This document shows positions 1,081 through 35,451 of a stretch of DNA of 44,164 bases, one piece after another (the first letter of the stretch is position 1; each line of letters begins with the position of its first letter). Location: contig WHTJ01000032.1 in NCBI GenBank assembly GCA_009377795.1, forward strand, positions 1-44,164, written 5' to 3'. The stretch comes from Propionibacteriales bacterium. GTDB lineage: Bacteria > Actinomycetota > Actinomycetes > Propionibacteriales > Nocardioidaceae. The notes under the pieces were generated by a model, which worked only from the letters and a program-made list of their open reading frames with translations, searched no databases and was not told the DNA's origin. The position numbers were made by a program, and so were the translations under genes.

Positions 1081-2463
1081 ATGGACGAGCACCTCTTCGC
1101 ATACCTGGGTGACTGGGTGTCCAGAACCTGGCTCGACGACGTACCCACCGTCGCGCAGTCCGTCGCCAGGCGGGCGATTCTCGACTGCGTGGGCGTCACG
1201 CTGGCGGGGCGCGATACCGACGTGGGCGAGGTGCTGAGCCGGTACATCGAGTCGTCCGGTACGACGGGGAAGGCGACTCTCATCGGTCGCCCTGGTACCA
1301 CGTCCACCGAGCACGCGGCGTTCGTGAACGCCGCCCAGGGTCATGCGCTGGACTTCGACGACTGCAACAGCTCGCTCGGCGGCCATCCGAGCGTCGTCGT
1401 GCTCCCTCCCGCGCTCGCCGTGGCCGAGGAAGTCGGCGCCACCGGGTCCGCACTGCTGGAGGCCTATGCCCTCGGGTTCGAGGTCGCGACCAAGATGGCC
1501 CGGTGCGTGAACTTCACGCACTACGAGCGCGGATGGCATCCGACCGCGACGCTGGGTGTCTTCGGTGCGACGGCGGCGGCCGCCAAGCTGATGGGTCTGG
1601 ATGCACAAACCACCACCACCGCCCTGGCGATCGCCGCATCCACGGCCGCGGGCATCAAGGCCAACTTCGGCACCGCGACGAAGCCCCTGCAAGTCGGTCG
1701 GGCGGCACAGAACGGCGTGCTTGCCGCCCGGCTCGCGGCCGTGGGCGCCGACGCCAACCCCGGCGCCTTCGAGCACGGGCAGGGGTTCGGCGCCGTGTTC
1801 AACGGTGCCGACGCCTTCGATCCGTCCGCAGCGCGGCAGTCCCTCGCCGACCCGTGGGACCTGGTCGACCCGGGCCTCACGGTGAAGCGGTACCCCTGCT
1901 GCGCCAGTACGCATGGAGCGATCGACGCGGCGCTCGTCCTGCGGGAGGGGTTGGACGAGGTCGATTCCATCGAGCAGGTACGGATCTGGACCCATCCGCG
2001 ACGGCTGCGGCATACCAACCGTCCCGAGCCGTCCGCCGGGCTGGAGGCGAAGTTCAGCGTCCAGTACGTCGTCTCCCGGGCCCTGTGGTCCGGCGGGGTC
2101 GGTCTGCTCGACTTCACGCCGGACGCGATCACCGAGCGACCGGTCCGCGAGCTGATGGGGCGAGTCGTGGCCGAGCCGATGCCCCAGGAGCGCTGGGGCG
2201 CGGACCACTTCCCTGCGGAGGTCGAGCTGTCGGTGGGCGGGCTCACGCACCGCCATCGGGTCGAACGTCCGAAGGGCAACGGTCCCGCGGCGGCGTTGAC
2301 CGACGAGGAGCTCACCGCGAAGTTCATGGACTGCTGCCGGGCGGCGGGTGTGGCGGACGAGGACGGCAAACGCCTTCAGACGGAGATCCTGATGCTCGAG
2401 GCCGTGGACGACCTGGCGACCATCACCGAGCCGCTCGCCGACGGCTCCTCCGACAGGTGGTGA
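1081..2463 (+). CDS. MmgE/PrpD family protein, copy 1
   Basis: A 460-residue member of the MmgE/PrpD fold, whose known members include 2-methylcitrate dehydratase and cis-aconitate decarboxylase. Visible family motifs are LDFDDCNSSLGGHPS (acidic pair and His), TKPLQVGRAAQNG (Lys loop) and VKRYPCCASTHGAIDA (second Lys and His). The ATG at 1081 is preferred over an in-frame ATG at 1009 because a good Shine-Dalgarno (aaaggag, about 1065-1071) stands before it and the 1009 start would lie inside the operator. First gene of a plus-strand operon; its stop overlaps the start of the hydroxyacid dehydrogenase (GTGA). The substrate cannot be told from sequence. It belongs with copies 4, 5 and 7 by its motifs. 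Confidence 0.85.
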   Translation: MDEHLFAYLGDWVSRTWLDDVPTVAQSVARRAILDCVGVTLAGRDTDVGEVLSRYIESSGTTGKATLIGRPGTTSTEHAAFVNAAQGHALDFDDCNSSLGGHPSVVVLPPALAVAEEVGATGSALLEAYALGFEVATKMARCVNFTHYERGWHPTATLGVFGATAAAAKLMGLDAQTTTTALAIAASTAAGIKANFGTATKPLQVGRAAQNGVLAARLAAVGADANPGAFEHGQGFGAVFNGADAFDPSAARQSLADPWDLVDPGLTVKRYPCCASTHGAIDAALVLREGLDEVDSIEQVRIWTHPRRLRHTNRPEPSAGLEAKFSVQYVVSRALWSGGVGLLDFTPDAITERPVRELMGRVVAEPMPQERWGADHFPAEVELSVGGLTHRHRVERPKGNGPAAALTDEELTAKFMDCCRAAGVADEDGKRLQTEILMLEAVDDLATITEPLADGSSDRW

Positions 2464-3518
2464 CCCGACCGGCGCCGCGGGTGGTCGTACTCGACGACTA
2501 CGAGGGCTTCCTCGCACGATCACCGGTCCTCTCGGCGCTGGACGGCCGGATCGAGCTGGTTCCCTACGATCGTCCGCTGCGAGAAGCCGACCTGGAGGCG
2601 GCGCTCAGGGACGTCCCGATCGTCATCGCGCTCCGGGAGCGCACTCCCTTTCCCGCGGATGTCCTCGCCCGGATGCCGGACGTCGAGCTGCTGCTGCAGA
2701 CCGGCGGGCACGCCTATCACATCGACCGGGACGCCGCGACCAGCTCGGGGATCGCCGTCGCCCTCGGTCGGGCTTCGATACGTCCCTCACCCGTGATCGC
2801 CGAGCTCGTGGTCGGTCTCATGATCGCCTGGTACCGCGGAATCGTGCCGGCCGTCCAGGGCATGCGGTCCGGCGCCTGGCCGGCGCAACCGGGCCGGCTG
2901 CTGCGCGGCCGGACACTCGGCATCCTCGGCCTCGGCCGCCATGGGATCACGGTCGCCCGGGCCGCGAAGGCCCTCGGCATGCGGATCGTCGCGTGGGGGC
3001 CGAGCCTGACCGTCGAACGTGCCGCCGCGGAGGAAGTCGAGCTGCTGTCGCTGCCGCGACTGCTGACGCAGGCCGACATCGTCTCCGTCCATCTTCGCCT
3101 CTCGCCCGAGTCGACCGGCCTCATCGGCGCTCGGGAGCTGGAACTGATGGGCCCGAACACGTTCCTCATCAACACGTCACGGGGCGCCATCGTCGACGAG
3201 GACGCACTGCTGGCGGCGCTCCGCGATCGCCGGATCGAGGGTGCGGCACTCGACGTCTTCACCCACGAACCGCTGCCGCCCGATCATCCGTTCCGCTTCC
3301 TCGACAACGTCATCTGTACGCCGCACATCGGTTACACCGTGGATGCGGCCTTCGACGACTTCGCACGGACGAGCGTGTCACAGCTGGACGCCTATCTCCG
3401 CGGTGAGCTCGACCCAGAGCTGCTGATCAATCCGGAGGTGCTGGACCGCCACTCGGCCACCCGGGGCGGCTTTCTGGGCGGTCGTACTGCGCCTGCACCA
3501 CCGCCTACCGGGCAATAA
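2460..3518 (+). CDS. D-2-hydroxyacid dehydrogenase family protein
   Basis: A 352-residue NAD(P)-dependent oxidoreductase expected to interconvert a 2-hydroxyacid and a 2-oxoacid in the cytoplasm. The nucleotide loop GLGRHG is at residues 157-162. The catalytic Arg (INTSRGAIVDE, R241), Glu (FTHEPLP, E270) and His (CTPHIG, H289) are all present. The acidic residue that normally ends beta-2 in NAD-specific members is missing (VAWGPSLT), so cofactor choice is open. The GTG start at 2460 overlaps the previous stop by four bases, indicating translational coupling to PrpD copy 1. A natural partner reaction would oxidise or reduce a hydroxyacid made by the PrpD enzymes; this is inference. Confidence 0.85.
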   Translation: MTRPAPRVVVLDDYEGFLARSPVLSALDGRIELVPYDRPLREADLEAALRDVPIVIALRERTPFPADVLARMPDVELLLQTGGHAYHIDRDAATSSGIAVALGRASIRPSPVIAELVVGLMIAWYRGIVPAVQGMRSGAWPAQPGRLLRGRTLGILGLGRHGITVARAAKALGMRIVAWGPSLTVERAAAEEVELLSLPRLLTQADIVSVHLRLSPESTGLIGARELELMGPNTFLINTSRGAIVDEDALLAALRDRRIEGAALDVFTHEPLPPDHPFRFLDNVICTPHIGYTVDAAFDDFARTSVSQLDAYLRGELDPELLINPEVLDRHSATRGGFLGGRTAPAPPPTGQ

Positions 3519-3542: not shown

Positions 3543-4955
3543 ATGGGCCAAGCCGATCTGACCGGACGGGTGATCGCTCACCTGCGCGATCGCCGCGAGG
3601 CCGTGCAGACACCGGCGGCGCGGGAGGCGACCGCACTGCACCTGCTGGACTCGCTGGCCGCGGTGATCTCCGGCCGGGTGATGCCGGCGGGGCGAGCCGC
3701 GGGTGAGTGGCTGGCGCACCGGCCCGGTGGCGGCCGGTCGTCCTGTGCAGGCGAGCAGGATCTCCGCCATGCGGAGGAGGCGGCGTTCGTCAACGCGATG
3801 TGCGCGCATGCGGACGAGTCCGACGACTCCCACGAGCCTTCGCGGTCGCATCCCGGCGCGTCGATCGTCCCGGTCGCGGTCGCGGTCGGCGAGCAGCGCG
3901 GCTCGGCACCGGACGAGGTGCTGGACGCGGTCACCTTGGGGTACGAAGCGTGTGCGTTGATGAACTGGCTGCTCTGGCCCACTGCCGCGGCCCGGCGCCG
4001 AACGCACCTGAGCTCGCACGCGACGGGCGGGCTGTGGGGTAGCGCGGTCACCGCCGGCGTTCTGCACGGATTCGACGACGAGCAGATGCGGTCGCTCATC
4101 GGTTACACCAGCCAGATGTCGGCGGGTCTCGCGACGTGGCTGCGAGACGAGCACCACATCGAGAAGGCGTTCGCGTTCTCCGGCATGCCCGCGTGGAACG
4201 GCGTACGCGCCGCCGGGCTGGTCGACTGCGGCTGGCCCGGCGTCAGGGACGCCCTGGACGGGGCGCCGAGCCTCTTCTCGGCCTTCGGCGCGGAGCCGCG
4301 GGAGGAGGCGCTCGCCGAGGCGGCGTCCCGACCGGCCATCGTGCTCGAGACCAACATCAAGAAGTACTGTGTCGGCTCGCCCGCGCAGGCCGCGGTGCAA
4401 GCGGCCGAGGAGCTGGTCGGCGACGGCGTGAGCGCGAGCCAGGTGAGCGCCCTGCGCATCCATCTCCCGACGGATCTCGCCTACATCGTCGACCAGCGGG
4501 ACATGACCAACATCAACGTCCAATACCTCGCGGCGGTGACACTCGTCGACGGCCGGTGCACCTTCGCCGTGGCCCACGACGAGAACGGCGCGCAGCGGCC
4601 GGAGGTCTCGGACCTGCTCACCCGTACCGAGCTGGTGGCCGACGGCGAGATGGAGCCGATACGGCAAGCACGCGTCGAGGCCGAGCTCGTCGACGGTCGA
4701 ACGCTTCGCAAGTCCGTTTTTCCAGTACGGGGTACGAAAGACGACCCGATGACGCGGGGCGAAGTGGAGGCCAAGGCGGACGACCTCATGTCCATGGCAC
4801 TGGACGGCAGGTACCGAGCGGAGGTCATCGAGGCCTGCGGGCCGTTCGACGAGGCCTCCCTCCGGCGGATCGGCGACGCTCTGCGAGCCGTCCGCGAGAC
4901 AGCAGTCGAACCCGCCACGGGTGGCGACCGGAAGGAGACCATACATGGAGCATGA
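3543..4955 (+). CDS. MmgE/PrpD family protein, copy 2
   Basis: 470 residues. The first active-site motif has the variant form HADESDDSHEPSRSHPG, the Lys loop reads HHIEKAFAFSGMPAWNG, and the third motif IKKYCVGSPAQAAVQA lacks the usual TH..ID. Copy 6 at 27225-28619 carries the same variant pattern (HADETDD, IGKAFASAGM, IKQYPVGMPIQ), so these two form a distinct subgroup, probably acting on a related substrate. The ATG at 3543 follows a clear ggaggg Shine-Dalgarno, 24 bases after the dehydrogenase stop. Its 3' end overlaps copy 3 by 11 bases. Function beyond family level is unknown. Confidence 0.85.
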   Translation: MGQADLTGRVIAHLRDRREAVQTPAAREATALHLLDSLAAVISGRVMPAGRAAGEWLAHRPGGGRSSCAGEQDLRHAEEAAFVNAMCAHADESDDSHEPSRSHPGASIVPVAVAVGEQRGSAPDEVLDAVTLGYEACALMNWLLWPTAAARRRTHLSSHATGGLWGSAVTAGVLHGFDDEQMRSLIGYTSQMSAGLATWLRDEHHIEKAFAFSGMPAWNGVRAAGLVDCGWPGVRDALDGAPSLFSAFGAEPREEALAEAASRPAIVLETNIKKYCVGSPAQAAVQAAEELVGDGVSASQVSALRIHLPTDLAYIVDQRDMTNINVQYLAAVTLVDGRCTFAVAHDENGAQRPEVSDLLTRTELVADGEMEPIRQARVEAELVDGRTLRKSVFPVRGTKDDPMTRGEVEAKADDLMSMALDGRYRAEVIEACGPFDEASLRRIGDALRAVRETAVEPATGGDRKETIHGA

Positions 4956-6330
4956 CACCACCGAGGATCAGTGGCTCGGGGCCATCGCCGGGTTCGCGAC
5001 CGGTCCCGTGGCGGCGCTGGACGATACCCGGCGCGAGGCGATCGTCACCCGGGTCGTGGACACCATCGGATGTGCACTCGGTGCCGGGTCGTCGGACGCC
5101 GTCGAGGTGGTCACGGCCTACGCGGCCCGCAGGGCGAATGGTGGGCGGCACGCGACATGGGGAACCGACCTCGACGTGGACCTGGAGAGCGCGGCGCTCG
5201 CCAACGGCGTCTCGGCGCGCTATCTCGACTACAACGATGCCTACTTCGGGGTCGAGCCCATTCACCCGAGTGATGTCATCCCCACGCTTTTCGCGTGCGC
5301 GCTGGAGAACGAGCGCAGCGACGATGAGTTCCTCGACGCCGTCGCGGTGGCGTACGAAGTGGCGATGACCGCGGCGGACGAGATCACGCCGAGGCGAAGC
5401 GGATTCGACCACGTCAATGTGACCATGCTCGGAGCCGTGACGGGAGCGGCACGACTTCTCGGGCTCTCGGAGGAAAAGGCCCGGCACGCCGTATCCATCG
5501 CCGTCACCAGTCACGCCGCGTACCGGCAGGCCCGTACCGGCCAGCTGTCCATGTGGAAGGCCTTCGCCGCCGCGGACGCCTGCCGGCACGCCGCGTACGC
5601 GGCTTTGCTCGCGTCCGTGGGCGCGCGCGGACCGGCCGCCCCCTTCGCCGGGCAGCAGGCCATGTTCCGGCGTGCCCTTGGTCTGAGTCCCGACGAGTTC
5701 CCGGTCCTCACGCTGACGTCCGAAGCACCGGCACGCATCGCCGGATCGCAGATCAAGCGGTTCCCGTGCGGCTCGGTGGGGCAGAGCGCCGCCCAGGCCG
5801 CGACGGACCTCGTGGCGCGCGGCATCTCGCTGCGCGACGTGCAGTCGATCGACATCCGGCTCGACCCGAAGGCCGCGGCGCTGATGGTCAGCCCGGAGAA
5901 GCTCGAACCTCGGACCCGGGAGACCGCCGACCACTCCATTCCCTACGTCATCGTGTCGACCCTCCAGCGGGGTGCGTTGACCGTCGAGTCCTTCACCGAC
6001 GGGGCGATCTCCGACCAGGAGGTTCGGTCGTTCCTCCAGGACAACGTGAAGGTGGGTGCCGATCCGGCCCTCGGCGGCGGACACGACATGGGCTTCCCGG
6101 TGGATCTGAACGTGACGTTGAAGGACGGGCGGGTGGAGGAACACGCGGTGGAGCACCCTCCCGGGTCACCCCGCAACCAGATGCCGTACGAGGAGCTCAA
6201 GACGAAGTTCGTGGGGTCACTGGACCGCTCGGCGCTGGCGGACCGGGCCGACCAGCTGTGGGACCTGACATGGTCGCTCGGCGGGGAGGCCTCGACCATT
6301 CCCCGGATCAACGAGTGCCTGCGCCACTGA
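4945..6330 (+). CDS. MmgE/PrpD family protein, copy 3
   Basis: 461 residues and the most divergent of the seven copies. Its motifs read LDYNDAYFGVEPIHPSDV (one Asp of the usual DD pair is Asn), GQLSMWKAFAAADACRHA and IKRFPCGSVGQSAAQA. The ATG at 4945 is chosen because gaaggag (about 4931-4937) precedes it; an in-frame ATG at 4921 lacks such a site. The start lies inside the 3' end of copy 2, so the two are translated from one mRNA. Three PrpD-fold proteins in one operon suggest either successive dehydration steps or enzymes for stereoisomers. Confidence 0.85.
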   Translation: MEHDTTEDQWLGAIAGFATGPVAALDDTRREAIVTRVVDTIGCALGAGSSDAVEVVTAYAARRANGGRHATWGTDLDVDLESAALANGVSARYLDYNDAYFGVEPIHPSDVIPTLFACALENERSDDEFLDAVAVAYEVAMTAADEITPRRSGFDHVNVTMLGAVTGAARLLGLSEEKARHAVSIAVTSHAAYRQARTGQLSMWKAFAAADACRHAAYAALLASVGARGPAAPFAGQQAMFRRALGLSPDEFPVLTLTSEAPARIAGSQIKRFPCGSVGQSAAQAATDLVARGISLRDVQSIDIRLDPKAAALMVSPEKLEPRTRETADHSIPYVIVSTLQRGALTVESFTDGAISDQEVRSFLQDNVKVGADPALGGGHDMGFPVDLNVTLKDGRVEEHAVEHPPGSPRNQMPYEELKTKFVGSLDRSALADRADQLWDLTWSLGGEASTIPRINECLRH

Positions 6331-6360: not shown

Positions 6361-7113
6361 ATGCGAGTCGTCCTGGTGACCGGAGCCGGCCGGAACCTCG
6401 GGAAGGAGATCTCCAGAGCCTTCGCGATGTCGGGTCACGCCGTGGTCATGAACGCACGGTCCGCGGACGCCGTCGAGAAGGGCGCCGCGGAGATCGTCGA
6501 GGAAGGCGGGCGGGCGGTGGGCATGCCCGGTGACGTGACCTCGGAGGAGGATGTACGCCGGATCTTCGACGAGACTCGGCGACGACTCGGAGCGGTCGAC
6601 GTTCTCGTACATTGCGCGACGACTCGCGTCCATCGCGGATTCCTCGACATGTCGGTGGAGGAGTGGCGCCTACCGTTCGAGGTGGGCCTGACCGGTGCCT
6701 TCCACTGCGTGCGGGCGGCACTCCCGGAGATGATCGAGCGTCAGTGGGGTCGCGTCATCTTCCTGGCCGGGGTCTCGGGTCAGACCGGTGCGGCGAACCG
6801 CGCCGGTGTGGTGGCGGCGAAGAGCGGCCTCATCGGGCTCACGAGGGCGCTTGCGCTCGAGTTCGCCGCGACCGGCGTGACCGTCAACTCCGTCTCGCCC
6901 GGGCTCATTGACACCGAACGTGGCGAATGGACCAGTCAGGGAGACCAGTCGATCACCACGGAGCACTATCGCGCGCGTAAGGGGCAGGTTCCGGTCGGCC
7001 GGATGGGCCGGATGTCTGAGGTGACGGCCGCATGTCGTTACCTCGCCTCCGAGGACGCGGGCTTCGTCACCGGGCAGACCCTCAACGTCAACGGCGGCAT
7101 GTACCTCGGGTGA
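6361..7113 (+). CDS. SDR-family protein lacking the catalytic Ser and Tyr
   Basis: A 250-residue Rossmann protein most like FabG-type short-chain dehydrogenases. The nucleotide loop TGAGRNLG (7-14), the GDVTSEED segment and the C-terminal FVTGQTLNVNGG are intact. Aligned to FabG, the catalytic Ser is Gly137 (FLAGVSG), the catalytic Tyr is Val150 (AGVVAAKSG), the structural Asn of V-N-L is Gly109, and NNAG reads HCAT (84-87). Only Lys154 of the N-S-Y-K tetrad remains. It may bind NAD(P) without normal dehydrogenase chemistry, or use another mechanism. Last gene of the plus operon, 30 bases after PrpD copy 3, with aagaaagg before the ATG. Confidence 0.8.
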   Translation: MRVVLVTGAGRNLGKEISRAFAMSGHAVVMNARSADAVEKGAAEIVEEGGRAVGMPGDVTSEEDVRRIFDETRRRLGAVDVLVHCATTRVHRGFLDMSVEEWRLPFEVGLTGAFHCVRAALPEMIERQWGRVIFLAGVSGQTGAANRAGVVAAKSGLIGLTRALALEFAATGVTVNSVSPGLIDTERGEWTSQGDQSITTEHYRARKGQVPVGRMGRMSEVTAACRYLASEDAGFVTGQTLNVNGGMYLG

Positions 7114-7138: not shown

Positions 7139-8020
7139 TCAGTCCGCGGGCCGCTCGACGGTACGACGTTCGAGCGCGTAGTACGCCTCCAGCCCGATGA
7201 CGTCCTCCAGCTCCTTGCGGATGCGGATCATCTCCTCGGGCTCGTCGCTGGGCTCACCCGACTCCTTCCATTGCCGCAACGCCGCCTGGACCGCACGGTA
7301 TTGGGAGAGGGTCGCGAGGTGGGGGTTGCGCACGATCTTGTAGCCCATGCTCTCCAGCTCGGCGACCGATGGCCGCGGCCGTCCGAGGCGGTTCCCCTCA
7401 CTCACTCCGTAGACCGTCGGTGCCGCGATGTCCGTCGGCGCGCGGCGGGCCTCTTCGAGCGAGTTGGGCCATACGAGGATCGCGTCGGCGCCTGCTTCGA
7501 CATAGTGGGCGGCCCGGCGGATGGCCTCGTCGTAGCCGTCGGTCGCCATGGCGTCTGTCCTTGCCACGATGAGAAAATCCGGGTTGCTCCGTGCCTCTAC
7601 CGCGGCCTGGAGCTTCTCCACCATCTCCTCCGTGCTGACGATGTGCTCGATGCCCTTGTGATAGTGGACCCGCTTCGGATAGATCTGGTCCTCGAGGTGG
7701 ATGCCCGCCACCCCGGCGTGCTCGAACTCCCGCACCGTGCGCTGTACGTGGACGGGAGAACCGAAGCCCGCGCCCGCGTCGACGACGACCGGCAGGTTGG
7801 TCGCGATCACGATGCGACGAGCGTTCTCTACGCACTCCGTCAACGTCAGCAACGGTTCGGGTGTCATGAGATTGGCGCCGAGCGCATAGCCGCCGACGCC
7901 CACCATCTCGAAGCCCGCATCGCGGGCGAGCCGACCGGTCAGTGGGCTGTAGACGATCGGGCAGGGGATGGTTCCGGGGCGGGCCATCCGTTCACGCAAA
8001 GCTCCGACCGGGTCTTGCAT
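7139..8020 (-). CDS. Isocitrate lyase/PEP mutase superfamily enzyme
   Basis: 293 residues, a TIM-barrel protein of the ICL/PEPM superfamily (2-methylisocitrate lyase, oxaloacetate decarboxylase, PEP mutase). The Mg-binding stretches DAGAGFGSP, HLEDQIYPKR and ARTDAMATDG are clear. The catalytic-loop KKCGH of true isocitrate and methylisocitrate lyases is replaced by KRVHYHKG, with no Cys, so a decarboxylase or other C-C or C-P reaction is more likely than PrpB activity. The ATG at 8020 is preferred over 8044 because aggagga lies between them. Transcribed divergently from the IMDH-like gene across operator B. It could cleave a product of the PrpD or dehydrogenase steps (inference). Confidence 0.8.
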   Translation of the reverse strand: MQDPVGALRERMARPGTIPCPIVYSPLTGRLARDAGFEMVGVGGYALGANLMTPEPLLTLTECVENARRIVIATNLPVVVDAGAGFGSPVHVQRTVREFEHAGVAGIHLEDQIYPKRVHYHKGIEHIVSTEEMVEKLQAAVEARSNPDFLIVARTDAMATDGYDEAIRRAAHYVEAGADAILVWPNSLEEARRAPTDIAAPTVYGVSEGNRLGRPRPSVAELESMGYKIVRNPHLATLSQYRAVQAALRQWKESGEPSDEPEEMIRIRKELEDVIGLEAYYALERRTVERPAD

Positions 8021-8061
8021 GGGACGCTGAGTCCTCCTCCACATGCCGACGGCACGTCTAC

Positions 8062-8075
8062 TGTCAACTGTAGAC
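8062..8075 (+). promoter_or_regulatory. GntR-type operator B (TGTCAAC-TGTAGAC)
   Basis: Perfect two-unit TGTnnAC direct repeat with 7-base phasing, in the 62-base space between two divergent genes (minus start 8020, plus start 8083). The stretch from 8059 is also largely palindromic (CTACTGTCAACTGTAG, 12 of 16 positions). It could control both genes at once. It ends only 7 bases before the GTG of the dehydrogenase, which suggests a very short or absent leader there. Confidence 0.65.
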
Positions 8076-9894: not shown

Positions 9895-10026
9895 GTTTCG
9901 TGCCCTAGATCCCGACTCGTGAGTAGCGCTGACACTCTAGCTCGACCACACCGTCTGGCATGGCTTCATCCCCTCACGTGCGTGGCGCGAACCCCTGGAG
10001 CGACGACGAATCATGTCGATTGTTTA

Positions 10027-10047
10027 TGTAGACTGTATCGTGTCAAC
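10027..10047 (+). promoter_or_regulatory. GntR-type operator C (three phased units)
   Basis: Three contiguous 7-base units, TGTAGAC, TGTATCG and TGTCAAC, preceded by a degenerate TGTTTA. It is the longest array of the motif in the window and lies between divergent GntR1 (start 9894) and the AtuA-type gene, so it may serve both autoregulation and control of the plus-strand unit. Confidence 0.6.
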
Positions 10048-10078
10048 AAATAGCGGTGATACTCCCGCCGACGTCTCC

Positions 10079-11479: not shown

Positions 11480-11825
11480 TGGCGCGGCTGCGGGATCTCG
11501 CCCGGTTGATCAGGAGCAAGAACGCGGGCCCCTTCGAGCTGACCTTCGACATCATGTTCGTCGATCCGTCGGTGTACGAACGGGTCAAGCGTTCCGGTGC
11601 CATCGACGCGCAAGTCTTCGCCCGGCTCTTCGGAGTGCCCGAGGGGTCGGTGCGGGTCTACGCGTACGACCCGGCCTTCTCCTACAAGATCACGATCCCC
11701 CGTCCTTCGGTCAGCGGCTCGGTTTGGGTGATGGCGACGTGTACGGCGCCCAGCAGTTCGGCCCGCTGGTCGACCTCGACGTACCGGTCGAGGAGCCTCC
11801 CGCCGGCCCGGGCCGGCAGTCCTGA
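11479..11825 (+). pseudogene. DUF4387 family protein, interrupted by an apparent frameshift
   Basis: The frame from the ATG at 11479 gives a typical DUF4387 start (LRDLARLIRSKNAGPFELTF) up to KITIPRPSVSGS. The conserved continuation GDGDVYGAQQFGPLVDLDVP is in the next frame and ends at the TGA at 11825. One base is missing (or two extra) in 11721-11730, a T-run then G-run, which is where an indel error would be likely. Repaired, the protein would be about 115 residues. The family almost always follows a DUF1446/AtuA gene, as here, and its function is unknown; the two may form a complex. Without repair, translation would run on in frame into the downstream flavoprotein gene. Confidence 0.75.
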
Positions 11826-25896: not shown

Positions 25897-25926
25897 GCTC
25901 TGAGTCCCTCTGGTCCACGGCAATTC

Positions 25927-27224: not shown

Positions 27225-28619
27225 TCACCGGTGGACGTCGAGGTGATCACGGAGCTGCCGGACGCTCGTCAGCCGCTCCGCATCACGGATCGTCTCCGTC
27301 AGCGTGTCCACCCGCTTGGGGCCGATCACGCCGTCGAGCACCATGTGCGCCTTGTCGGCGATTCGGCTCCACGACATCGGGTTGTGCCGTGACCCCCGTG
27401 GTGCGTCGACGTGCCGCGAGAACCTGCGGCCGTCGTAGGTGCGGATGTTGACGGTGGCGATGCGGGTACGGCGTGCCGCCGGGTCGGGATCGTCCGGCGG
27501 ATCGAGCGTCTCGTCGGGCACGAGCTGGATGCGGGCCATCACCTCCCGCGTCTCGGGTTCCTCGTGTCGCCGGTAGTCGTGCGCGCTGTCGAAGGTCAGG
27601 CGTCCGTCCATGAGCATGACCGCCAGGACGTACTGCAGGCTGATGTCCGGCATGCTGCGGGCGTTCACGAGTCGTGAGCCATGCGTGGGAAGCCGCGCTT
27701 CGACGGACTCGATGTCGTCGGCCGTGAGGCCGTGCTCGTGGAGGAGTCGTTCGAGTGCCTCGGCCGGCGCCTGAATCGGCATGCCGACCGGATACTGCTT
27801 GATGTCCGTCGTCATCACGTGATGCGTCGTGCCGAGCTCTTGCACCAGTCGCCCCGGATCGCCGTCCTCACCGAACGCGTCGTAGGCATGTGGTGAGACG
27901 TCGAAGACATCGGATACGTCGGTGAAGCCGGCACGCACCATCTCGACGGATCGCACGCCGGAGTGTGCCTGCATGCCGGCGGACGCGAACGCCTTGCCGA
28001 TGTGATCCGGAGACCGGTAGAAGCTCGAGATGCCCGAGACCTGCTGTGCCGTGTAGGACAGCACGTACCGGTGCTGATCCATCGGCAGGCGGGCGACGGA
28101 TGCGGCGGCGGCCGCCGCCCCGAAGGCCTGGCCGATGCCGTGCGGGCTGTGCATCGACTTCTGCATCCGCGGCAGTGATCGCCATGCCGCGATGTTGACG
28201 CTGCACGCCACGTCGTAGCCGACGGCCACGGCCGCGAGCAGGGACGACCCCGGACGGTCGAGTGCCTCGCCCATCGCCACCGCGGCCGGGACGACGGACG
28301 CACCGGGGTGCACTCTGGCCAGGTCGTTGACGTCGTCGGTCTCGTCGGCGTGCGCGCTCATGCCGTTGACGAGGGCGGCCAGCTCCGGATTCGTCCGGGC
28401 GCCGTGCCCGACGATGGTGGACTCTCCAACCCCGCCACGCGAGAGCGCGTACGCGGCGGCGAGGCGGCCCGGCCGCAGCGTCGCGCCACTGATCATGGCC
28501 ACGAGTGCGTCGATGATGTGCAGCTTCGCGCGTTCGACGACGTCGGCCGGGAGTTGGCGGGCCTCCGCGTCGGCCACGTACTGCGCCAATGCCGTCGTGA
28601 CCGGTGCGTCGGCGTGCAT
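27225..28619 (-). CDS. MmgE/PrpD family protein, copy 6
   Basis: 464 residues. Motifs: SAHADETDDVNDLARVHPGA, DHIGKAFASAGMQAHSG and IKQYPVGMPIQAPAEA, the same variant set as copy 2 (3543-4955). The ATG at 28619 is chosen because gagaggag stands before it; the frame is open to 28754 but the extra part crosses the repeat and operator region. GTATAC-type sites lie upstream. Presence of one member of this subgroup in each half of the island suggests an ancient duplication followed by separate regulation. Confidence 0.85.
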   Translation of the reverse strand: MHADAPVTTALAQYVADAEARQLPADVVERAKLHIIDALVAMISGATLRPGRLAAAYALSRGGVGESTIVGHGARTNPELAALVNGMSAHADETDDVNDLARVHPGASVVPAAVAMGEALDRPGSSLLAAVAVGYDVACSVNIAAWRSLPRMQKSMHSPHGIGQAFGAAAAAASVARLPMDQHRYVLSYTAQQVSGISSFYRSPDHIGKAFASAGMQAHSGVRSVEMVRAGFTDVSDVFDVSPHAYDAFGEDGDPGRLVQELGTTHHVMTTDIKQYPVGMPIQAPAEALERLLHEHGLTADDIESVEARLPTHGSRLVNARSMPDISLQYVLAVMLMDGRLTFDSAHDYRRHEEPETREVMARIQLVPDETLDPPDDPDPAARRTRIATVNIRTYDGRRFSRHVDAPRGSRHNPMSWSRIADKAHMVLDGVIGPKRVDTLTETIRDAERLTSVRQLRDHLDVHR

Positions 28620-28683: not shown

Positions 28684-28702
28684 AGTATACCAAGGCATAC
28701 AG
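28684..28702 (-). promoter_or_regulatory. GTATAC-type operator, PrpD copy 6
   Basis: The minus strand reads CTGTATGCC, a short spacer, then GTATACT. Two GTATAC-like cores about 11 bases apart, 65-83 bases before the start of PrpD copy 6. GTATAC is a common core for FCD-type GntR proteins; the GntR2 gene is the next gene upstream. Confidence 0.5.
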
Positions 28703-28824: not shown

Positions 28825-29505
28825 TCAACCCTGCGACTCGGCCCACAGCGCGAGGCGCAGGTCGCGTGCCTTCGTGAAGTGGGCTGTGGCGACCTCGCCC
28901 GCGCGAGCGGCGTCCCGGCCCTCGATGGCGTCGATCAGGCGCCGGTGCTCACCGTTCGCCTCGGTCCAGCGACCCGGCTGCGACAACGTCGTCGCGGGGT
29001 AGCGGGTGAGGTGCAGGTCGAGCCTGGAGAGCAGGTCGATCAGAGGCTCGTTATGGCTCGCTCGCCACACCGCCTGATGAAACTCGCGGTTGCCCTCGGC
29101 CATGAGGTTCTCGTCGTCGGTCTCCAGCCGTTCGAGCCGGTCGGCCACCCGCTTGAGATTGATGACGTCGATCTTCGATCGCCGTTCCGAGGCCACTCTG
29201 GCGGCGGTGGCCTCCAGCACCACCCGGGTCTCGTAGATGTCGAGGATCTCCTCGGGGTTTCGCTCGCGCACGATGAGGCCGCGCTCATTGCGGATCACGA
29301 GGCCGTCCTGCTCGAGCCGGGTGAGCGCCTCGCGGATCGGCGTCCGGCTCATGTCGCACCACCGCGCCAGCGTCGACTCGACCAGCTGCTGGCCGGGCAT
29401 GAGCTCCCCGGTCAGTATCGCGTTCTTGATCATCGCGTACGGCGAGCGTCGCTGGACGCCCGCCGTCATGGCCGAAACGTCATCGACCGTGCGCCGTGCG
29501 GCCAT
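28825..29505 (-). CDS. GntR family regulator, FCD domain (GntR2)
   Basis: 226 residues. The winged helix-turn-helix is at about 20-75 (LVESTLARWCDMSRTPIREA, then LTRLEQDGLVIRNERGLIV). The FCD domain occupies about 80-220 with EFHQAVWRASHNEPLIDLL, GEHRRLIDAIEGRD and AHFTKARDLRLAL carrying the usual acidic/His positions. The ATG at 29505 follows gaggagacgtg; the adjacent GTG at 29508 is less likely. GTATAC-type sites lie in front of this gene, in front of PrpD copy 6 and in front of the TcuA-ThDP-PrpD-ALDH operon, which makes it the probable regulator of the right-hand module (inference). Confidence 0.9.
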   Translation of the reverse strand: MAARRTVDDVSAMTAGVQRRSPYAMIKNAILTGELMPGQQLVESTLARWCDMSRTPIREALTRLEQDGLVIRNERGLIVRERNPEEILDIYETRVVLEATAARVASERRSKIDVINLKRVADRLERLETDDENLMAEGNREFHQAVWRASHNEPLIDLLSRLDLHLTRYPATTLSQPGRWTEANGEHRRLIDAIEGRDAARAGEVATAHFTKARDLRLALWAESQG

Positions 29506-29537
29506 CACGTCTCCTCATCACGGCTGAATCCCCCGTT

Positions 29538-29553: not shown

Positions 29554-29554
29554 G

Positions 29555-30976
29555 TCATGGCCGGCCAATCGAGATGAGTCGCTGTTCGGTCATCTCGTCG
29601 ATCGCGTAACGCGGTCCCTCGAGGCCCAGACCGCTGTGCTTGACGCCGCCGTACGGCATGAGGTCGACCCGGCTGCTGGACGTCTCGTTGATGTGCACCG
29701 AGCCCATCCGGAGGCGCTCGGCAGCCGTGAGCGCGCGCGTGATGTCGGAGGTGAAGATGCCCGCGGCCAGCCCGAACGGCGTGTCGTCGACCTCGGCGAG
29801 CGCCTCGTCGAAGTCGGAGAACGGCCTGATGCTGACGACCGGTCCGAATATCTCCCGGCAGAACACATCCAGGTCGGCGGCGACGTCGTCGAGCACGGTG
29901 GGTTCGATCACCTGGCCGGAGCGCCTCCCGCCGTGCACGACCTGGGCGCCGCGACGAGTCGCCCGGTCGATCCACGACTCGATGCGGTCCGCGTCCTCCG
30001 CGCTGATCACCGGGCCGACGAACGTCCCCTCCTGCTTCGGGTCGCCCGCGGTACGCGACCCGAGCTCGTCCTTGATCGCGCTGAGGAACTCGTCGACGAC
30101 CGCGGCATGGACGTAGAGGCGCTGGACCGACGTACACACCTGGCCGGCCTTCCGGAAGGCGGCGCCCACACAGAGGGGAACGCACCTGTCGAGTACGGCG
30201 TCCTCGCACACGATCGTGCTGGACAGGCTCCCCAGCTCGAGCTGTGTCCTGCGCAGGCCCACCGTCCGCCGGATGTGCTCGCCCACCTCGGTGCTCCCGG
30301 TGAACGCGTAGAACGAGGGGATCGGGCTCTCCAGCAGCCGTTGACCGACCGTCGAACCCGGGCCCTGGACCAGCGCGACGAGATCGGGCGGCAGACCGGC
30401 GTCGAGCAGCAGCTGCACGAGCATGCCCGCGCTGAGCGGTGTGTACGACGCCGGCTTGACGACGACTCCGTTGCCGGCCGCCAACGCCGGAGCAACCTTG
30501 TGCGTGAGGGTGTTGAGCGGCGAGTTGAACGGCGTGATCGCGCACACGACACCGAGGGGACGGCGGACAGTGAACGCGTAGCGTTCGGAGACCCCCGGCG
30601 CGCTGTCGAACGGCACCACCTCGCCGTGTATCCGTTTGGCTTCCTCGGCGGACAGCAGAAGGGTCTGCGCCGCTCGCGAGACCTCGCGCCGCGCGTCGGT
30701 CAACGTGAACCCGGTGTCGAGTACCACGGTGTTCACGAACTCGTCGTGGAGCTCCTCCATCCGGCGGGCGGCCGTGGACAGGATCCGGAACCGGTCGTAC
30801 GGGGGCAGTGCATGGTCGCGCTGTCCCCGTGCGACGCCCTCCAGTGCAGCGTCGACGTGTTCGCTACCGGCCTCGTGCACCTCTGCGACCGGCGTTCCGT
30901 CGTACTTGTCGCGCATCTCGAAGGTCGACACACCGTCGATCCACGACCCGTGGACGAACAGCCGTGCCGTCCTCAT
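29555..30976 (-). CDS. NAD(P)-dependent aldehyde dehydrogenase
   Basis: 473 residues of the ALDH superfamily, oxidising an aldehyde to an acid. The active-site residues are all present: Asn151 (ITPFNSPLN), Lys174 (VVVKPASYTP), Glu247 (TQLELGS) and the nucleophile Cys281 (AGQVCTSVQRLYV). The family ELGG motif reads ELGS. It overlaps PrpD copy 7 by four bases (ATGA) and ends the four-gene operon. It follows a ThDP enzyme that could release an aldehyde by decarboxylating a 2-oxoacid, so the two may act in sequence. Confidence 0.9.
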   Translation of the reverse strand: MRTARLFVHGSWIDGVSTFEMRDKYDGTPVAEVHEAGSEHVDAALEGVARGQRDHALPPYDRFRILSTAARRMEELHDEFVNTVVLDTGFTLTDARREVSRAAQTLLLSAEEAKRIHGEVVPFDSAPGVSERYAFTVRRPLGVVCAITPFNSPLNTLTHKVAPALAAGNGVVVKPASYTPLSAGMLVQLLLDAGLPPDLVALVQGPGSTVGQRLLESPIPSFYAFTGSTEVGEHIRRTVGLRRTQLELGSLSSTIVCEDAVLDRCVPLCVGAAFRKAGQVCTSVQRLYVHAAVVDEFLSAIKDELGSRTAGDPKQEGTFVGPVISAEDADRIESWIDRATRRGAQVVHGGRRSGQVIEPTVLDDVAADLDVFCREIFGPVVSIRPFSDFDEALAEVDDTPFGLAAGIFTSDITRALTAAERLRMGSVHINETSSSRVDLMPYGGVKHSGLGLEGPRYAIDEMTEQRLISIGRP

Positions 30977-32331
30977 GTCGCGTTCTCACCTTCTCGTTCT
31001 GTGGAAAGGCCCCGCACGTTCTCCGATGTCCGCAGCTCCCACAATGCCGTGCTCAGGGCGGCGCATCCCTCGCGGCCGAGGACCGGCGACACGAGCTCGT
31101 CGAACTTGTCGGAGAGTTCCACGTCTGTGAGCGGGTCGTCGGGGTCGCCCTTGCGCGTGGGCCGGACGCGGACGTGCTGTGTGCCGTCCTGCATGTCGAT
31201 CCGAAGCCGTGCGCCCCGTTGACGGGGGAACGAGGCGTCGAAGTCCGGATCCACCGTGAGCGTGACGCGCTTCATCAGGTCGCGCAGCCGGGGGTCGTGG
31301 AGGTGTCCGTCGTCGAAGGCGCGCGGTCGTACCGAACCGAGGCAGAGCGCGGCGGCGACACAGTACGCCGTGCTGAACTTGGCCTCGAACTCCGTGGCCG
31401 GGTTGGGATTTCCGGCGACCTCGGTAGCGGTCTCGTACGTCGCGACCGTGATCCGGTCGATGTCGTCGATCCGGATGCCTTCCGCTCGTACGTCCAGCAC
31501 CGCGTCCACGGCGGCGAAGGCATGACCGCAGCACGCATGGTTCTTCACCGTCGCCGTGGTCACCGCCCAGGGCGAACCCAGCCGGGCCACCGCATCCTCC
31601 CAGTCCGGTCCGTCCGACATCGCGGCGCCGAAACCGGCCGCACCGTCCAGCACGTCGGCCGCGCCGGTGAAGCCGCGCGCCGCGGCCAGCGCGCCCAGCA
31701 ACCCTGCCTCGGCCGCGTGCCCGGAGTGCAGGGGCTTGCTCATCGTGTCTGAGCGGAAGGCCTGCTGAAGGCCGGCCGCCATCGTCGTCGCGGTCGCGAG
31801 CGCGTGCGTGAACTGCTCGACCTCCAGTTCGAGTACCTCACTCGCGCCCGCGGCGGCGCCGATGGTTCCGACGGTGCCGGTGGTGTGCCAGTACGCGTAA
31901 TGCGCCGGCTGTATCGCGGCCGCGATGCGAGCGCCGACCTCGTACCCGACGGCGACCGCCCGCAGGAGGTCCGCGCCGCTCGCCCCGACGTGCTCGGCCG
32001 TCGCCAGTACGGCCGCGACCGTGGGCGCGCCCGGATGGTAGATGCCGTCGCGGTAGATGTCGTCCAGCTCGACCGTGTGTGCGGCCGTACCGTTGATCAG
32101 CGCGGCGGTTCGTGGTGCGACCGCGACCCCATCGGGTACGAGGCGCGCCGACCCCGAGGTCGGCTCGTCGACGAGCGTGTCTCGCAGCACGCGCGCGGGT
32201 CTCATCCCGGATCCGGGAACCGTCGCCGCGAACCAATCGACCACCGCCCGGGTCGCGGCGTGGGAGACGTCCCCGCTCAGGGGTGCTGTGCGGTGCGCGA
32301 CCGCGAACTCGGCGAATCGGTGCAGGACCAT
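30973..32331 (-). CDS. MmgE/PrpD family protein, copy 7
   Basis: 452 residues. Motifs: TAHTVELDDIYRDGIYHPGA (Asp replaced by Glu in the first acidic position), SDTMSKPLHSGHAAEAG and VKNHACCGHAFAAVDA. The SKPLHSGHAAEAG loop is close to canonical PrpD. The ATG at 32331 has ggaggaac immediately upstream, 10 bases after the ThDP gene. Third gene of the operon TcuA-ThDP-PrpD-ALDH. Confidence 0.85.
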   Translation of the reverse strand: MVLHRFAEFAVAHRTAPLSGDVSHAATRAVVDWFAATVPGSGMRPARVLRDTLVDEPTSGSARLVPDGVAVAPRTAALINGTAAHTVELDDIYRDGIYHPGAPTVAAVLATAEHVGASGADLLRAVAVGYEVGARIAAAIQPAHYAYWHTTGTVGTIGAAAGASEVLELEVEQFTHALATATTMAAGLQQAFRSDTMSKPLHSGHAAEAGLLGALAAARGFTGAADVLDGAAGFGAAMSDGPDWEDAVARLGSPWAVTTATVKNHACCGHAFAAVDAVLDVRAEGIRIDDIDRITVATYETATEVAGNPNPATEFEAKFSTAYCVAAALCLGSVRPRAFDDGHLHDPRLRDLMKRVTLTVDPDFDASFPRQRGARLRIDMQDGTQHVRVRPTRKGDPDDPLTDVELSDKFDELVSPVLGREGCAALSTALWELRTSENVRGLSTEREGENAT

Positions 32332-32341: not shown

Positions 32342-33973
32342 TCAGAACTGCGACTCGTACTGTGCGGGGTCGATGCGCGCCTCCACGATCAGCGGGCGCG
32401 AGAGCGTGCTGACCTGGGAGAGCGCCTTCTGCAGCTCGGCCGGCGACTCCGCGCGTACGCCGTCGCAGTCCATCGCCTCGGCGAGCGCGACCAGGTCGAG
32501 ATCCTCGAGCCGGGTCGCCGTGCTCGGGTAGCCCTGGGTCATCTGCTTGAGCTCGATGCGGTTCAGGCTGTTGTCGACGAACACCACGAACACGACCGCC
32601 AGGCCCATCGCCGCGGCCAGCCGTACCTCGGCGACGGTCATCGCGAAACCGCCGTCGCCGACCAGGGCGACGACGGGCCGCCGCGGATGTGCGAGCTTGG
32701 CCGCGATCGCCGCCGGGACCCCGAATCCCATGGACGAGAGGCCGTTGGTCATCAGCACACCCCGCGGGTGGAGGGTCTGCCAGCCCTGACCCACCAGGAG
32801 TTTGTGCGACCCGACGTCGGTGGTGGCGATCGTGTCGGCCGGGAACGAGCTGCGTGCGACATCGATGACGTCTGTCGGGTTGAGCCGGTCGTCGACTCGG
32901 CCCGCGTAGTACGCCGTGCGTAGCCGATCCCGGTGGCGCCGGATGTCGGACTCGCTCCAGCGTGGTTGTCCCCTCCACTCCTCGGTGAGCCAGCTCAGGA
33001 TCGCCCCGATGTCGCCGACACACTCACAACCGCTCGGGTAGATCTGGTCGGTGTTGGGTACGGCGTCGATGTGGAGCACCGGCGTCGACACCTTCCACGG
33101 CTTGATGAGCTCGACCGCGTCGAAGCCGGCCGCGACGATCAGGTCGGACTCGGCCAGCAGCTCCCACACCACCTGGTTGCAGGCCATGTCGATGACTCCG
33201 GCGAACAACGGGTGGTCCTCGGGAAGGACGCCCTTGCTCATCGGGGACACGACCACCGGCACCGACGCGGCCTCCGCGAACCGCACCAGCGCCTCGGTCG
33301 CGCCTGCGCGAACGGCGCCTATGCCGGCGAGTACGACTGGGTGTTTGGCCTTCTCCAGGAGGGCGACCGGGTCGTTTTCGGCGTCCGTCCGGCTGACGCT
33401 GACGGTGGTGACCGCGGGGCCGAGGGGAGGTGTGGCGACGTCCACGTCGGTCGCGGGGAGGCGACTGACATCGGCCGGGATGGTGAGGTGTACGGCACCG
33501 GGGCGTTCGGCGGTGGCCAGACTCAGCGCCTTGCGCATCGTGGTCCCCACCGACGAGGCCTCCACCCGTCCGGCCCATTTGGTGATGGGGGAGTACAGCA
33601 GTTTGTGGTCGACCACCTGGTGGGTGAAGTACTGCTCTCGGGCGGTCTCGATCTGGCCCGAGATGGCCACCATCGGCACCCGGTCAAGGTTCGATGCCGC
33701 GACGCCGTTGACCAGCGCCGTCGAGCCAGGTCCGAGAGTGGACAGGCACACGCCGACGGTTCCCGTGGCGGCCGCGAATCCCTCGGCCATGAAGGCCGCG
33801 GTCGCCTCCCGCCGGGCGAGTACGACCTGCATATCCCGGGCTCGTGCCCGCTCCATGAGCTCGATGATCGGATCACCGGGGTAGGCGAAGATGTGCGAAA
33901 CGTGCGCGCCCGCGAGCGCGTCCACCATCACGTCCGCCGTGCTGGCCGCGTCGCTCGTGGCGTGCGGGGTCAC
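32342..33973 (-). CDS. Thiamine diphosphate-dependent enzyme (acetolactate synthase-like)
   Basis: 543 residues with the three ThDP-enzyme domains. The N-terminal Pyr domain has the activating Glu57 (VLARREATAAFMAEG), the central domain follows (about 195-330), and the C-terminal PP domain has GDGGFAMTVAEVRLAAAMGL with DNSLN closing the Mg/ThDP motif. Family members decarboxylate 2-oxoacids or join the product to another carbonyl. No small regulatory subunit lies nearby, so it is not a typical biosynthetic IlvB. The GTG at 33973 overlaps the TcuA-like stop (GTGA). With the downstream ALDH it could turn a 2-oxoacid into an aldehyde and then an acid (inference). Confidence 0.85.
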   Translation of the reverse strand: MTPHATSDAASTADVMVDALAGAHVSHIFAYPGDPIIELMERARARDMQVVLARREATAAFMAEGFAAATGTVGVCLSTLGPGSTALVNGVAASNLDRVPMVAISGQIETAREQYFTHQVVDHKLLYSPITKWAGRVEASSVGTTMRKALSLATAERPGAVHLTIPADVSRLPATDVDVATPPLGPAVTTVSVSRTDAENDPVALLEKAKHPVVLAGIGAVRAGATEALVRFAEAASVPVVVSPMSKGVLPEDHPLFAGVIDMACNQVVWELLAESDLIVAAGFDAVELIKPWKVSTPVLHIDAVPNTDQIYPSGCECVGDIGAILSWLTEEWRGQPRWSESDIRRHRDRLRTAYYAGRVDDRLNPTDVIDVARSSFPADTIATTDVGSHKLLVGQGWQTLHPRGVLMTNGLSSMGFGVPAAIAAKLAHPRRPVVALVGDGGFAMTVAEVRLAAAMGLAVVFVVFVDNSLNRIELKQMTQGYPSTATRLEDLDLVALAEAMDCDGVRAESPAELQKALSQVSTLSRPLIVEARIDPAQYESQF

Positions 33974-35451
33974 GTCGCCGACCGTCCCGCGTGCATTCCG
34001 GCGACCTTGCCGAACACCGCACCGCTCGTCAGGCCGGTGCCGCCGGGGTAGTTGAAGTAGAAGATGCCGCCGACCAGCTCGCCGCAGGCGTACAGCCCGG
34101 GAATCGGTTGCTCCTCGGTGTCGAGGACCTGGGCATCGGTGGTGATTCGCAGGCCGCCGAAGGTGAACGTGATCCCGCAGGTGATCGCGTACGCCTCGAA
34201 GGGCGGGCTGTCCAATGTGTTGGCCCAGTTCGACTTGTTGGTCGTGAGCCCGCTCGTCGACCGCCCGTCCTTGACGTTCGGGTCGAACGGAACATCCGTG
34301 CGTACGGCCTTGTTGTATTCCTCGACCGTTCGCAAGAACTGGTCTGGATCCACTCCCTCGAGTCTCGCGGCGAGCTCCTCGAGCGTTTTCCCGGTCACCT
34401 TGGTGACCTGGCGAATACGATATTCGTCCCGCAACAGATGCGTGACCTTCTGATCGAAGATCTGCCACGCGAACTGACTGGGCTGGGCGAGAACGACGCG
34501 CCCGTACTTCGCGTAGGTGTAGTTGCGGAAATCCGCCCCCTCGTCGACGAAACGCCTGCCCTCGGCATTGACCATGATCCCGAACGGATAGCTGTGTTTC
34601 TGGAAGCCGTCCCCCACCGCGAGGTCGCCGAAGGGCGGCGCGTGCAGCTCCCATCCGACGGCGTGCGCACCCGACCAATGGCCCCACGGCATGGCTCCGA
34701 TGTCCAGGGCCATCCCGATCCCGTCGCCCATGTTGAAGCGCGACCCGCGCACCTTGGCCAGGTCCCAACCCGGTCCGAGATAGCGAGTTCGCCATTCCGC
34801 ATTGGCCTCGAATCCGCCGCTTGCGAGCACCACCGCCGACGCGTGGACGTCTTCCAGTACGCCGTCGCGGCGAACTCGCACGCCCGTGACCCGCGGGCCG
34901 TCGGTCAGCAGCTGTACGGCGCGAGCGCCGTACTCGATCTCGGCGCCGGCCGTCTCGGAGGCCTTCGTCAGGGCGTCGACAAGCCCCGGTCCACCACCCC
35001 AGGCCTCGAGCGTCAGGCCACCCCAGAACTTGAATCGTCCGTCCACCTTGAACGCCTGGCGCCCATAGATCGGCAGGAACCGCACGCCCTTGTCACGCAT
35101 CCACCGAAGCGTGTCGAAGCTTCGCTTCACCAGCATCTCGGCGAGGTCGGGATCGGTACGGTACTCCGTGACCTCTGCCAGGTCGTCGAGAAAGTCTTCC
35201 TCGGTATAGGAGCCGAAGTCGGTCTGCTCGATCTGTGACTGCGACAAATCCGGTGACAGCTCGAGGATGTCCTCGACCCCGCGATAGGCCACGCGCATGG
35301 CACCCGCGGTAAAGGCCGTGTTTCCGCCGCGCTCGTCGTACGGTGCGCGTTCCAGAACGAGCACCGTCGCGCCGGTTTCCCGGGCCGCCAGTGCCGCGGT
35401 CAACGCCGCATTACCCGCCCCCACCACGACAACGTCATAGGACCTCTGCAT
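33970..35451 (-). CDS. FAD-dependent tricarballylate dehydrogenase-like flavoprotein (TcuA-like), copy 2
   Basis: 493 residues. FAD motif VVVVGAGNAALTAALAARE, then YDERGGNTAFTAGAMRV, and near the end CGITFTFGGLRITTDAQV and GLYACGELVGGIFYFNYPGG. It is closer to described TcuA proteins than copy 1, with AFTAGAMR and the complete cap domain. The ATG at 35451 follows ggaggagcgca. First gene of the right-hand operon, behind a GTATAC-type operator. No TcuB iron-sulfur/cytochrome partner is seen, so electrons must go elsewhere or another quinone-linked partner is encoded outside the window. Confidence 0.88.
   Translation of the reverse strand: MQRSYDVVVVGAGNAALTAALAARETGATVLVLERAPYDERGGNTAFTAGAMRVAYRGVEDILELSPDLSQSQIEQTDFGSYTEEDFLDDLAEVTEYRTDPDLAEMLVKRSFDTLRWMRDKGVRFLPIYGRQAFKVDGRFKFWGGLTLEAWGGGPGLVDALTKASETAGAEIEYGARAVQLLTDGPRVTGVRVRRDGVLEDVHASAVVLASGGFEANAEWRTRYLGPGWDLAKVRGSRFNMGDGIGMALDIGAMPWGHWSGAHAVGWELHAPPFGDLAVGDGFQKHSYPFGIMVNAEGRRFVDEGADFRNYTYAKYGRVVLAQPSQFAWQIFDQKVTHLLRDEYRIRQVTKVTGKTLEELAARLEGVDPDQFLRTVEEYNKAVRTDVPFDPNVKDGRSTSGLTTNKSNWANTLDSPPFEAYAITCGITFTFGGLRITTDAQVLDTEEQPIPGLYACGELVGGIFYFNYPGGTGLTSGAVFGKVAGMHAGRSAT

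Follow-up and report, generated by a model that had tools for sequence, protein, structure and literature searches.

The window analysed here, a stretch of 44,164 nucleotides from a Propionibacteriales bacterium (assembly GCA_009377795.1, contig WHTJ01000032.1), holds a genomic island of ~34.6 kb (about 950–35547) inserted into the actinobacterial chromosome. The island consists of about five modules or operons and carries seven MmgE/PrpD genes (PrpD1–PrpD7), all of which are full length, have open frames and match both Pfam domains (N and C) over the curated cut-offs. Judged by its gene families, the island may enable the cell to take up and degrade several substituted 1,4-dicarboxylic acids via modular PrpD, TcuA and cleavage enzymes, a reading that we hold with slightly less than even confidence. 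The candidate substrates would be substituted succinates, 2-alkylmalates and similarly shaped tricarboxylates. An earlier note on this DNA had reported a PrpD-rich island; the analysis confirms this and shows that it was understated. The two TcuA-like flavoproteins, the tripartite tricarboxylate transporter (TTT) genes, the ICL/PEPM enzyme, the isocitrate/isopropylmalate-type dehydrogenase, the nucleoside-diphosphate (NDP)-type coenzyme A (CoA) ligase and the acyl-CoA dehydrogenase that it listed are all present. To these we add an AtuA/DUF4387 pair, a thiamine pyrophosphate (TPP) enzyme, an aldehyde dehydrogenase (ALDH) and two damaged genes.

The island is bounded on the left by a UDG-family gene (215–949, minus strand; Pfam PF03167) and on the right by an alpha/beta hydrolase and trehalose-phosphate synthase pair (35548–38169, minus strand), assigned by profile match and by the order in relatives. 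These flanking genes are separated by 34,598 bases. In 8 of the 12 stretches fetched from relatives, the UDG gene lay close to hydrolase or trehalose-phosphate-synthase genes, on the strand of the synthase, with gaps of ~0, 0.5, 1.9, 2.1, 3.0, 4.8, 6.1 and 6.5 kb; one of the remaining four ran into a contig end and three were without this proximity. The GC content was nearly even along the window (0.66–0.72). No repeat of 9 bases or more was common to the two borders (901–1120 and 35441–35600), no tRNA gene was found in the window and no integrase was seen among the window genes scanned.

The number of PrpD genes is unusual. The source genome (4.58 Mb, 182 contigs, 96.8% complete, contamination given as 1.04%) contains 27 PF03972 matches, all over the cut-off, which is far above the other genomes sampled (highest elsewhere 10) and bears out the earlier note on this point. 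The 57 genomes of relatives carried 0–4 each. A draw of 396 Actinomycetota genomes, the source included, was searched with up to six candidates scored per genome, so that some counts are lower bounds; three of the 395 others reached at least six matches, and a full re-search of these gave 8, 8 and 6. Five further Actinomycetota genomes, fully re-searched, had 4–5 each, and 19 named genomes carrying a TcuA2 relative had 0–10. Among 200 genomes of the phylum of genome G462 (up to 12 candidates scored per genome, some counts being lower bounds), G462 had 10 matches and the next highest 6. The TctC receptor was likewise expanded, with 13 copies in the source genome and at most 7 in the 57 relatives. 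For comparison, PMC12290011 reports 50,344 hits in 21,713 organisms (~2.3 each), with 19.2% of species having an MmgE/PrpD homologue, and describes the homologues as mostly uncharacterised.

Pairwise identities among the seven window PrpDs were 21–34%, and 5 of the 351 pairs among all 27 copies exceeded 40% (one trio at 58–64%, and pairs at 43 and 40%). At identities this low, the copies are neither duplicates from different strains nor tandem copies of recent date. An artefact of binning or assembly, with copies drawn from several organisms or strains, would suit a genome in 182 contigs whose PrpD contigs range in GC from 0.661 to 0.729. We regard it as extremely improbable: a single contig carries all seven window copies, with the flanking genes in the relatives' order, and both the contamination value and the few pairs above 40% speak against it, without each of the other PrpD contigs being cleared thereby.

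The family tree that the earlier note had proposed was built from the 27 own PrpDs and 36 outside sequences (36 of 38 matches were long enough), the latter being those at hand and an uneven sample. On this tree, the window label required six changes, at least five of them forced by well-supported branches. PrpD7 fell among proteobacterial genes and a single actinobacterial one. Three tandem copies from Shinella joined PrpD1, a paralogue from the same genome and Bosea joined PrpD4, a sequence from another actinobacterium joined PrpD3, and own, related and Rhodococcus copies joined PrpD5; PrpD2 and PrpD6 formed the sole sister pair among the window copies. By the tree, the window PrpDs have separate origins, this pair excepted. 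Recent tandem duplication was ruled out by the identities and by the single sister pair. All seven copies retain the HP-motif histidine and both conserved lysines, the first lysine being one column off in PrpD2 and PrpD6.

Elsewhere in the genome, contig C121 (locus L010, 8892–11620) carries a pair of PrpD genes whose frames overlap. Relatives of both stand side by side in three other genomes (G293, G107 and G019; loci L038, L039 and L042). In the weaker clade, all six aligned members have Arg-Asn in place of the active-site Lys and have lost the His located three positions ahead of the acidic residue. By its sequence, this pair may form an MmgE/PrpD enzyme of two subunits, one of them altered.

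The chemistry that we infer for the island runs as follows. The tripartite transporter would import the acid, and a PrpD would abstract a proton at the carbon adjoining a carboxylate, leading to epimerisation or to water addition or removal. TcuA would introduce a C–C double bond. Cleavage could then proceed through the citramalate-lyase-type AtuA/DUF4387 pair, the ICL/PEPM lyase, the oxidative decarboxylase, or the TPP enzyme with the ALDH; a further exit would be a CoA branch via the acyl-CoA ligase and dehydrogenase. Seven PrpDs may be present because different substrates or stereoisomers require different ones. The earlier suggestion of a polycarboxylate-degrading island is probably right in kind, as di- or tricarboxylate catabolism fits its parts. 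It does not hold as one unknown pathway, because several of the modules recur elsewhere and resemble described systems, namely the methylsuccinate isomerase, TcuA and a citramalate lyase whose structure has been solved. That no described pathway has this set holds insofar as no paper in the open-licence literature was recognised as describing it; the set itself falls into about five modules, several of which recur in other genomes.

Recurrence was seen for module 5, which comprises TcuA2 (33970–35451, ATG at 35451), the acetolactate-synthase-like TPP enzyme (32342–33985, start not fixed), PrpD7 (30973–32331), the ALDH (29555–30976) and GntR/FCD regulator 2 (28825–29508), all on the minus strand. 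The search of other actinobacteria proposed in the earlier note returned TcuA2–TPP–ALDH in Streptomyces sp. CB02414 (80, 72 and 70% identity), in a genome without a PF03972 match, and TcuA2–TPP–PrpD7 in an Actinophytocola metagenome-assembled genome (MAG; 74, 65 and 63%, the PrpD being cut by the contig end). A proteobacterial MAG had TcuA2–TPP–PrpD7 at 70, 56 and 51%. Among the best 80 of 579 TcuA2 relatives, where some loci were short and counts are lower bounds, a TPP enzyme lay near at least 13, an ALDH near at least 23 and TctC near at least 13. At ≥40% identity and ≥60% coverage, the same 80 gave at least 2 for PrpD7, 3 for the TPP enzyme and 10 for the ALDH. In genome G175, relatives of TcuA1 (63%), PrpD7 (57%), the dehydrogenase (51%) and the monooxygenase (54%) were found in one place, and those of the TPP enzyme (63%), TcuA2 (67%) and PrpD3 (49%) ~80 kb away.

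At exact spacing, PrpD7 alone of the 27 copies gave a full residue match. The Pseudomonas aeruginosa methylsuccinate isomerase residues named in PMC12290011 are His88, Glu91, His102, Tyr148, His152, Lys202 and Lys266; PrpD7 keeps all seven at exact spacing, with a constant offset of –3. Among the other PrpDs, one copy scored 6; none of the remaining 25, which include the other six window copies, scored above 4, and 5400 shuffled sequences scored at most 5. This residue pattern is a sign of subfamily and not proof of substrate. By sequence, the solved structure nearest to PrpD7 was iminodisuccinate epimerase. The PrpD7 model (predicted local distance difference test, pLDDT, 88.6) showed the family fold; Foldseek ranked mouse IRG1 first by E-value, and iminodisuccinate epimerase had the best TM-score (0.88).

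The gene context of PrpD7 differs from that of the itaconate/methylsuccinate cluster of P. aeruginosa and Cupriavidus necator. As described in PMC12290011, that cluster shares with the island the isomerase residues and spacing, an acyl-CoA dehydrogenase, and a CoA-transferase (a remnant here) or CoA ligase; its itaconyl-CoA hydratase and citramalyl-CoA lyase were not seen in the window. PrpD7 is instead accompanied by TcuA2, the TPP enzyme and the ALDH, and the acyl-CoA dehydrogenase sits in another island operon. Five of the 15 plasmid matches listed for PrpD7 were opened, three of them annotated. All three had a CoA ligase and a TTT receptor nearby, and two had an enoyl-CoA hydratase.

Module 2 lies on the plus strand and contains AtuA (10013–11479), DUF4387 (11476–11825), TcuA1 (own start 11920; 11920–13407) and PrpD4 (13422–14810). 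AtuA matched PDB 9erq chain A (E 4.6e-98, residues 26–461) and DUF4387 matched chain B (E 1.5e-15), chains named citramalate lyase subunits A and B in the PDB. As in the citramalate lyase CmlA/CmlB (9erq and 9evf, known by database names), AtuA and DUF4387 are encoded by adjacent, overlapping genes. In the island, however, DUF4387 is frameshifted, TcuA1 and PrpD4 follow, and citramalate cleavage is a prediction. A DUF4387–TcuA fusion (frame 11305–13407) was ruled out, the linker consisting of out-of-frame DUF4387 and spacer ahead of the TcuA1 start.

The AtuA and DUF4387 genes were neighbours in all four plasmid loci fetched for AtuA, and DUF4387 genes were present in 5 of the 396 Actinomycetota genomes, the source included. 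One conjugative plasmid from a wastewater Klebsiella (L189, 7992–16051) carries AtuA, DUF4387, aldehyde dehydrogenases and a fumarate hydratase. Class I fumarases form citramalate from mesaconate, according to PMC12290011, and the plasmid's fumarate hydratase (class not fixed) would fit citramalate formation.

When compared with the FAD-dependent tricarballylate dehydrogenase TcuA, both window flavoproteins exceeded the NCBIfam NF006130 cut-off of 369 bits (TcuA1 478, TcuA2 598), and both fell below that of TIGR02485 (240 and 267 against 373). TcuA has a TcuB partner; none like it was recognised among the window genes scanned. The Bosea lathyri DSM 26656 locus L086 (21.5 kb) combined relatives of TcuA2 (71%), DUF4387 (46%), AtuA (38%), Ldh2 (37%) and the ICL/PEPM lyase (34%). 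The locus also has two PrpDs, of which one is truncated at the end, and two 2-hydroxyacid dehydrogenases. It differs from the island in having ABC transporter genes in place of the TTT, and its genome has 7 PF03972 matches.

Module 1 comprises, on the plus strand, PrpD1 (1081–2463), a D-2-hydroxyacid dehydrogenase (2460–3518; PF02826), PrpD2 (3543–4955), PrpD3 (4945–6330), a short-chain dehydrogenase/reductase (SDR; 6361–7113) and an isocitrate/isopropylmalate-type oxidative decarboxylase (8083–9144); the PrpB-like ICL/PEPM lyase (7139–8044) lies on the opposite strand. Three of the window PrpDs (PrpD2, PrpD3 and PrpD7) were covered by the PDB sequence search. PrpD2 was nearest to iminodisuccinate epimerase, and the best match of PrpD3 was, narrowly, 2-methylcitrate dehydratase. 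This match and the PrpB-like lyase would be in line with a methylcitrate cycle variant that handles propionate and has additional PrpDs. None of the seven copies passed the curated NCBIfam PrpD cut-offs; PrpD3 scored 129 bits against 950, 88 against 575 and 70 against 458, the first being the best value of any copy, and the PrpB-like lyase scored 201 against 354. A true PrpD function for the whole set was ruled out by these scores. The position of PrpD3 beside E. coli PrpD in the tree was weakly supported (81/24), and neither a citrate-synthase-family gene nor an aconitase was found among the window genes scanned, a search that stopped short of the rest of the genome. We therefore consider the methylcitrate variant very unlikely. 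The earlier note had also excluded the known methylcitrate cycle, rightly so in view of the PrpD scores and of the methylcitrate synthase not found beside PrpD/PrpB; its statement that PrpC and aconitase are missing applies to the window genes scanned. Its alkylcitrate-like substrate is hinted at for PrpD3 alone, and substituted succinates and alkylmalates fit more parts of the island.

Module 3, on the plus strand, holds a family III CoA-transferase remnant (14807–15168), PrpD5 (15217–16665) and then the malate/lactate-type dehydrogenase Ldh2 (16704–17756). An intact order of CoA-transferase, cyclase and PrpD5-type gene was found in three loci, on own contigs C66 and C111 and in genome G097. 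The remnant matched residues 130–196 and 343–396 of the G097 CoA-transferase at 73–75%, and the cyclase is missing in the window; it therefore looks as if the module had decayed here while its PrpD5 stayed intact. A luciferase-like monooxygenase (17781–18842, minus strand) separates this module from the transporter genes TctC (18938–20095; a putative lipoprotein receptor with the GTG start at 18938 read off the sequence), TctA (20183–21703) and TctB (21687–22658), which stand together on the plus strand. TctA and TctC were over the cut-off, and TctB was below its Pfam cut-off (24.7 against 29.1) but in place. Contig C121 carries a second such set (L048, 2091–15354) with TctB, TctA (56%), TctC, an SDR and a luciferase-like gene (44%), and, in the same locus, a TcuA (59%) and a TcuA2-type gene (70%) with a family III CoA-transferase.

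Module 4 lies on the minus strand and contains PrpD6 (27225–28619; start uncertain, 28619 or upstream up to 28754), a major facilitator superfamily transporter (25985–27184), the NDP-type acyl-CoA ligase (23821–25923) and the acyl-CoA dehydrogenase (22682–23824). Contig C66 has homologues of this dehydrogenase (71%) and ligase (59%) together with a PrpD5-type gene (59%). Of the PrpD positions given earlier, 1081, 3543, 4945 and 13422 hold as starts and PrpD5 begins at 15217 or 15235; for the minus-strand genes PrpD6 and PrpD7, the figures 27225 and 30973 give the lower boundary and not the start.

Two candidate operators divide the island. Operator A (ACTGTNNACAGT, up to one mismatch) occurred three times in the window against 0.42 expected, and 1 of 100 shuffles had three sites. 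The sites lie upstream of PrpD1 (1015–1026, one mismatch), between the ICL/PEPM lyase and the oxidative decarboxylase (8060–8071, one mismatch) and between the monooxygenase and TctC (18856–18867, perfect). All three are intergenic, though just 1286 of the 34,598 island bases are non-coding. None was found in 15 other loci of the own genome, two of them overlapping. Operator B (WGTATACCA) occurred twice against 0.02 expected, upstream of PrpD6 (28684–28692) and of TcuA2 (35469–35477), and a bare GTATAC precedes GntR2. The arrangement suggests that operon 1 and the transporter are under one control and the two minus-strand operons under another. The two GntR/FCD regulators (the first at 9178–9894, minus strand) may drive two regulons through ACTGTNNACAGT and WGTATACCA.

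Several points weigh against the modular breakdown of substituted dicarboxylic acids proposed above. The activities of all island genes are predictions from their families. The DUF4387 frameshift near 11721, with the usual end reading in another frame (stop at 11823–11825), may be an assembly error or a real lesion, and module 2 may not work; an automatic scan flagged no frameshift, yet it missed this one and is no proof of intact frames. The CoA-transferase remnant lacks its first part and ~146 inner residues, and module 3 may not work either. Near the best 80 of 579 TcuA2 relatives, PrpD was found for at least 6 and AtuA for at least 1; the low PrpD counts imply that TcuA2 works in several settings, with PrpD as an addition and not a fixed partner. 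When two positions of play per residue were allowed, 6 of the 27 PrpDs, PrpD1 included, reached all seven methylsuccinate-isomerase residues, and a TPP enzyme stood beside none of the three annotated PrpD7 relatives within the stretches shown. Both operator motifs were chosen post hoc, after looking, and serve as a lead only; looser versions were at or near chance (9 found against 7.1 expected, and 3 against 1.2).

The frameshift and the remnant show partial damage to the island. Together with the missing cyclase and the separate PrpD origins, they are what a decaying patchwork of transferred catabolic genes, mostly useless to the strain, would leave behind. We consider such a patchwork unlikely, since all seven PrpDs and most other genes have open frames, the PrpDs keep the two lysines and the HP histidine, and the genome-wide sets of 27 PrpDs and 13 TctCs suggest use.

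Alternatively, all seven PrpDs could act in a single linear pathway on one complex acid, for example an aromatic-ring-cleavage tricarboxylate such as 4-oxalomesaconate or its products. The PrpD1 relatives of Shinella sp. H4-D48 point in this direction, being three tandem PrpDs beside an annotated 4-oxalomesaconate tautomerase, as does a Shinella TcuA locus with an annotated 4-carboxy-4-hydroxy-2-oxoadipate aldolase, ALDH, TPP-type decarboxylase and TTT genes. Neither an aldolase nor a tautomerase of this kind turned up among the window genes scanned. Elsewhere the modules are found separately, the PrpDs differ in origin and the two candidate operators split the island; we judge the linear pathway improbable. 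The tandem PrpDs on Shinella plasmid p1 (L186, 5183–11085) also have a glutathione S-transferase beside them and a fourth PrpD nearby.

The seven distant PrpDs, most beside recognisable partners, yield concrete substrate guesses for several subfamilies together, and the island points to substituted succinates and tricarboxylates as carbon sources that could merit a specialist's genome. More tentatively still, the organism could be a substituted-succinate and polycarboxylate specialist, its 27 distant PrpDs and 13 TctCs forming a combinatorial isomerase/hydro-lyase kit with most reactions undescribed. The island would then combine desaturation by TcuA, hydration by PrpD and cleavage of the citramalate-lyase type in a candidate CoA-free route from substituted succinates to pyruvate.

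Two further observations lie outside the island. In the right flank, the gene at 42345–43319 has a lysyl-oxidase Pfam domain. A haloarchaeal plasmid, from Halomarina sp. BND7 (L187, 13190–28318), carries TcuA, ICL/PEPM, MaoC, acyl-CoA dehydrogenase and two PrpD genes by a C–P lyase cluster.

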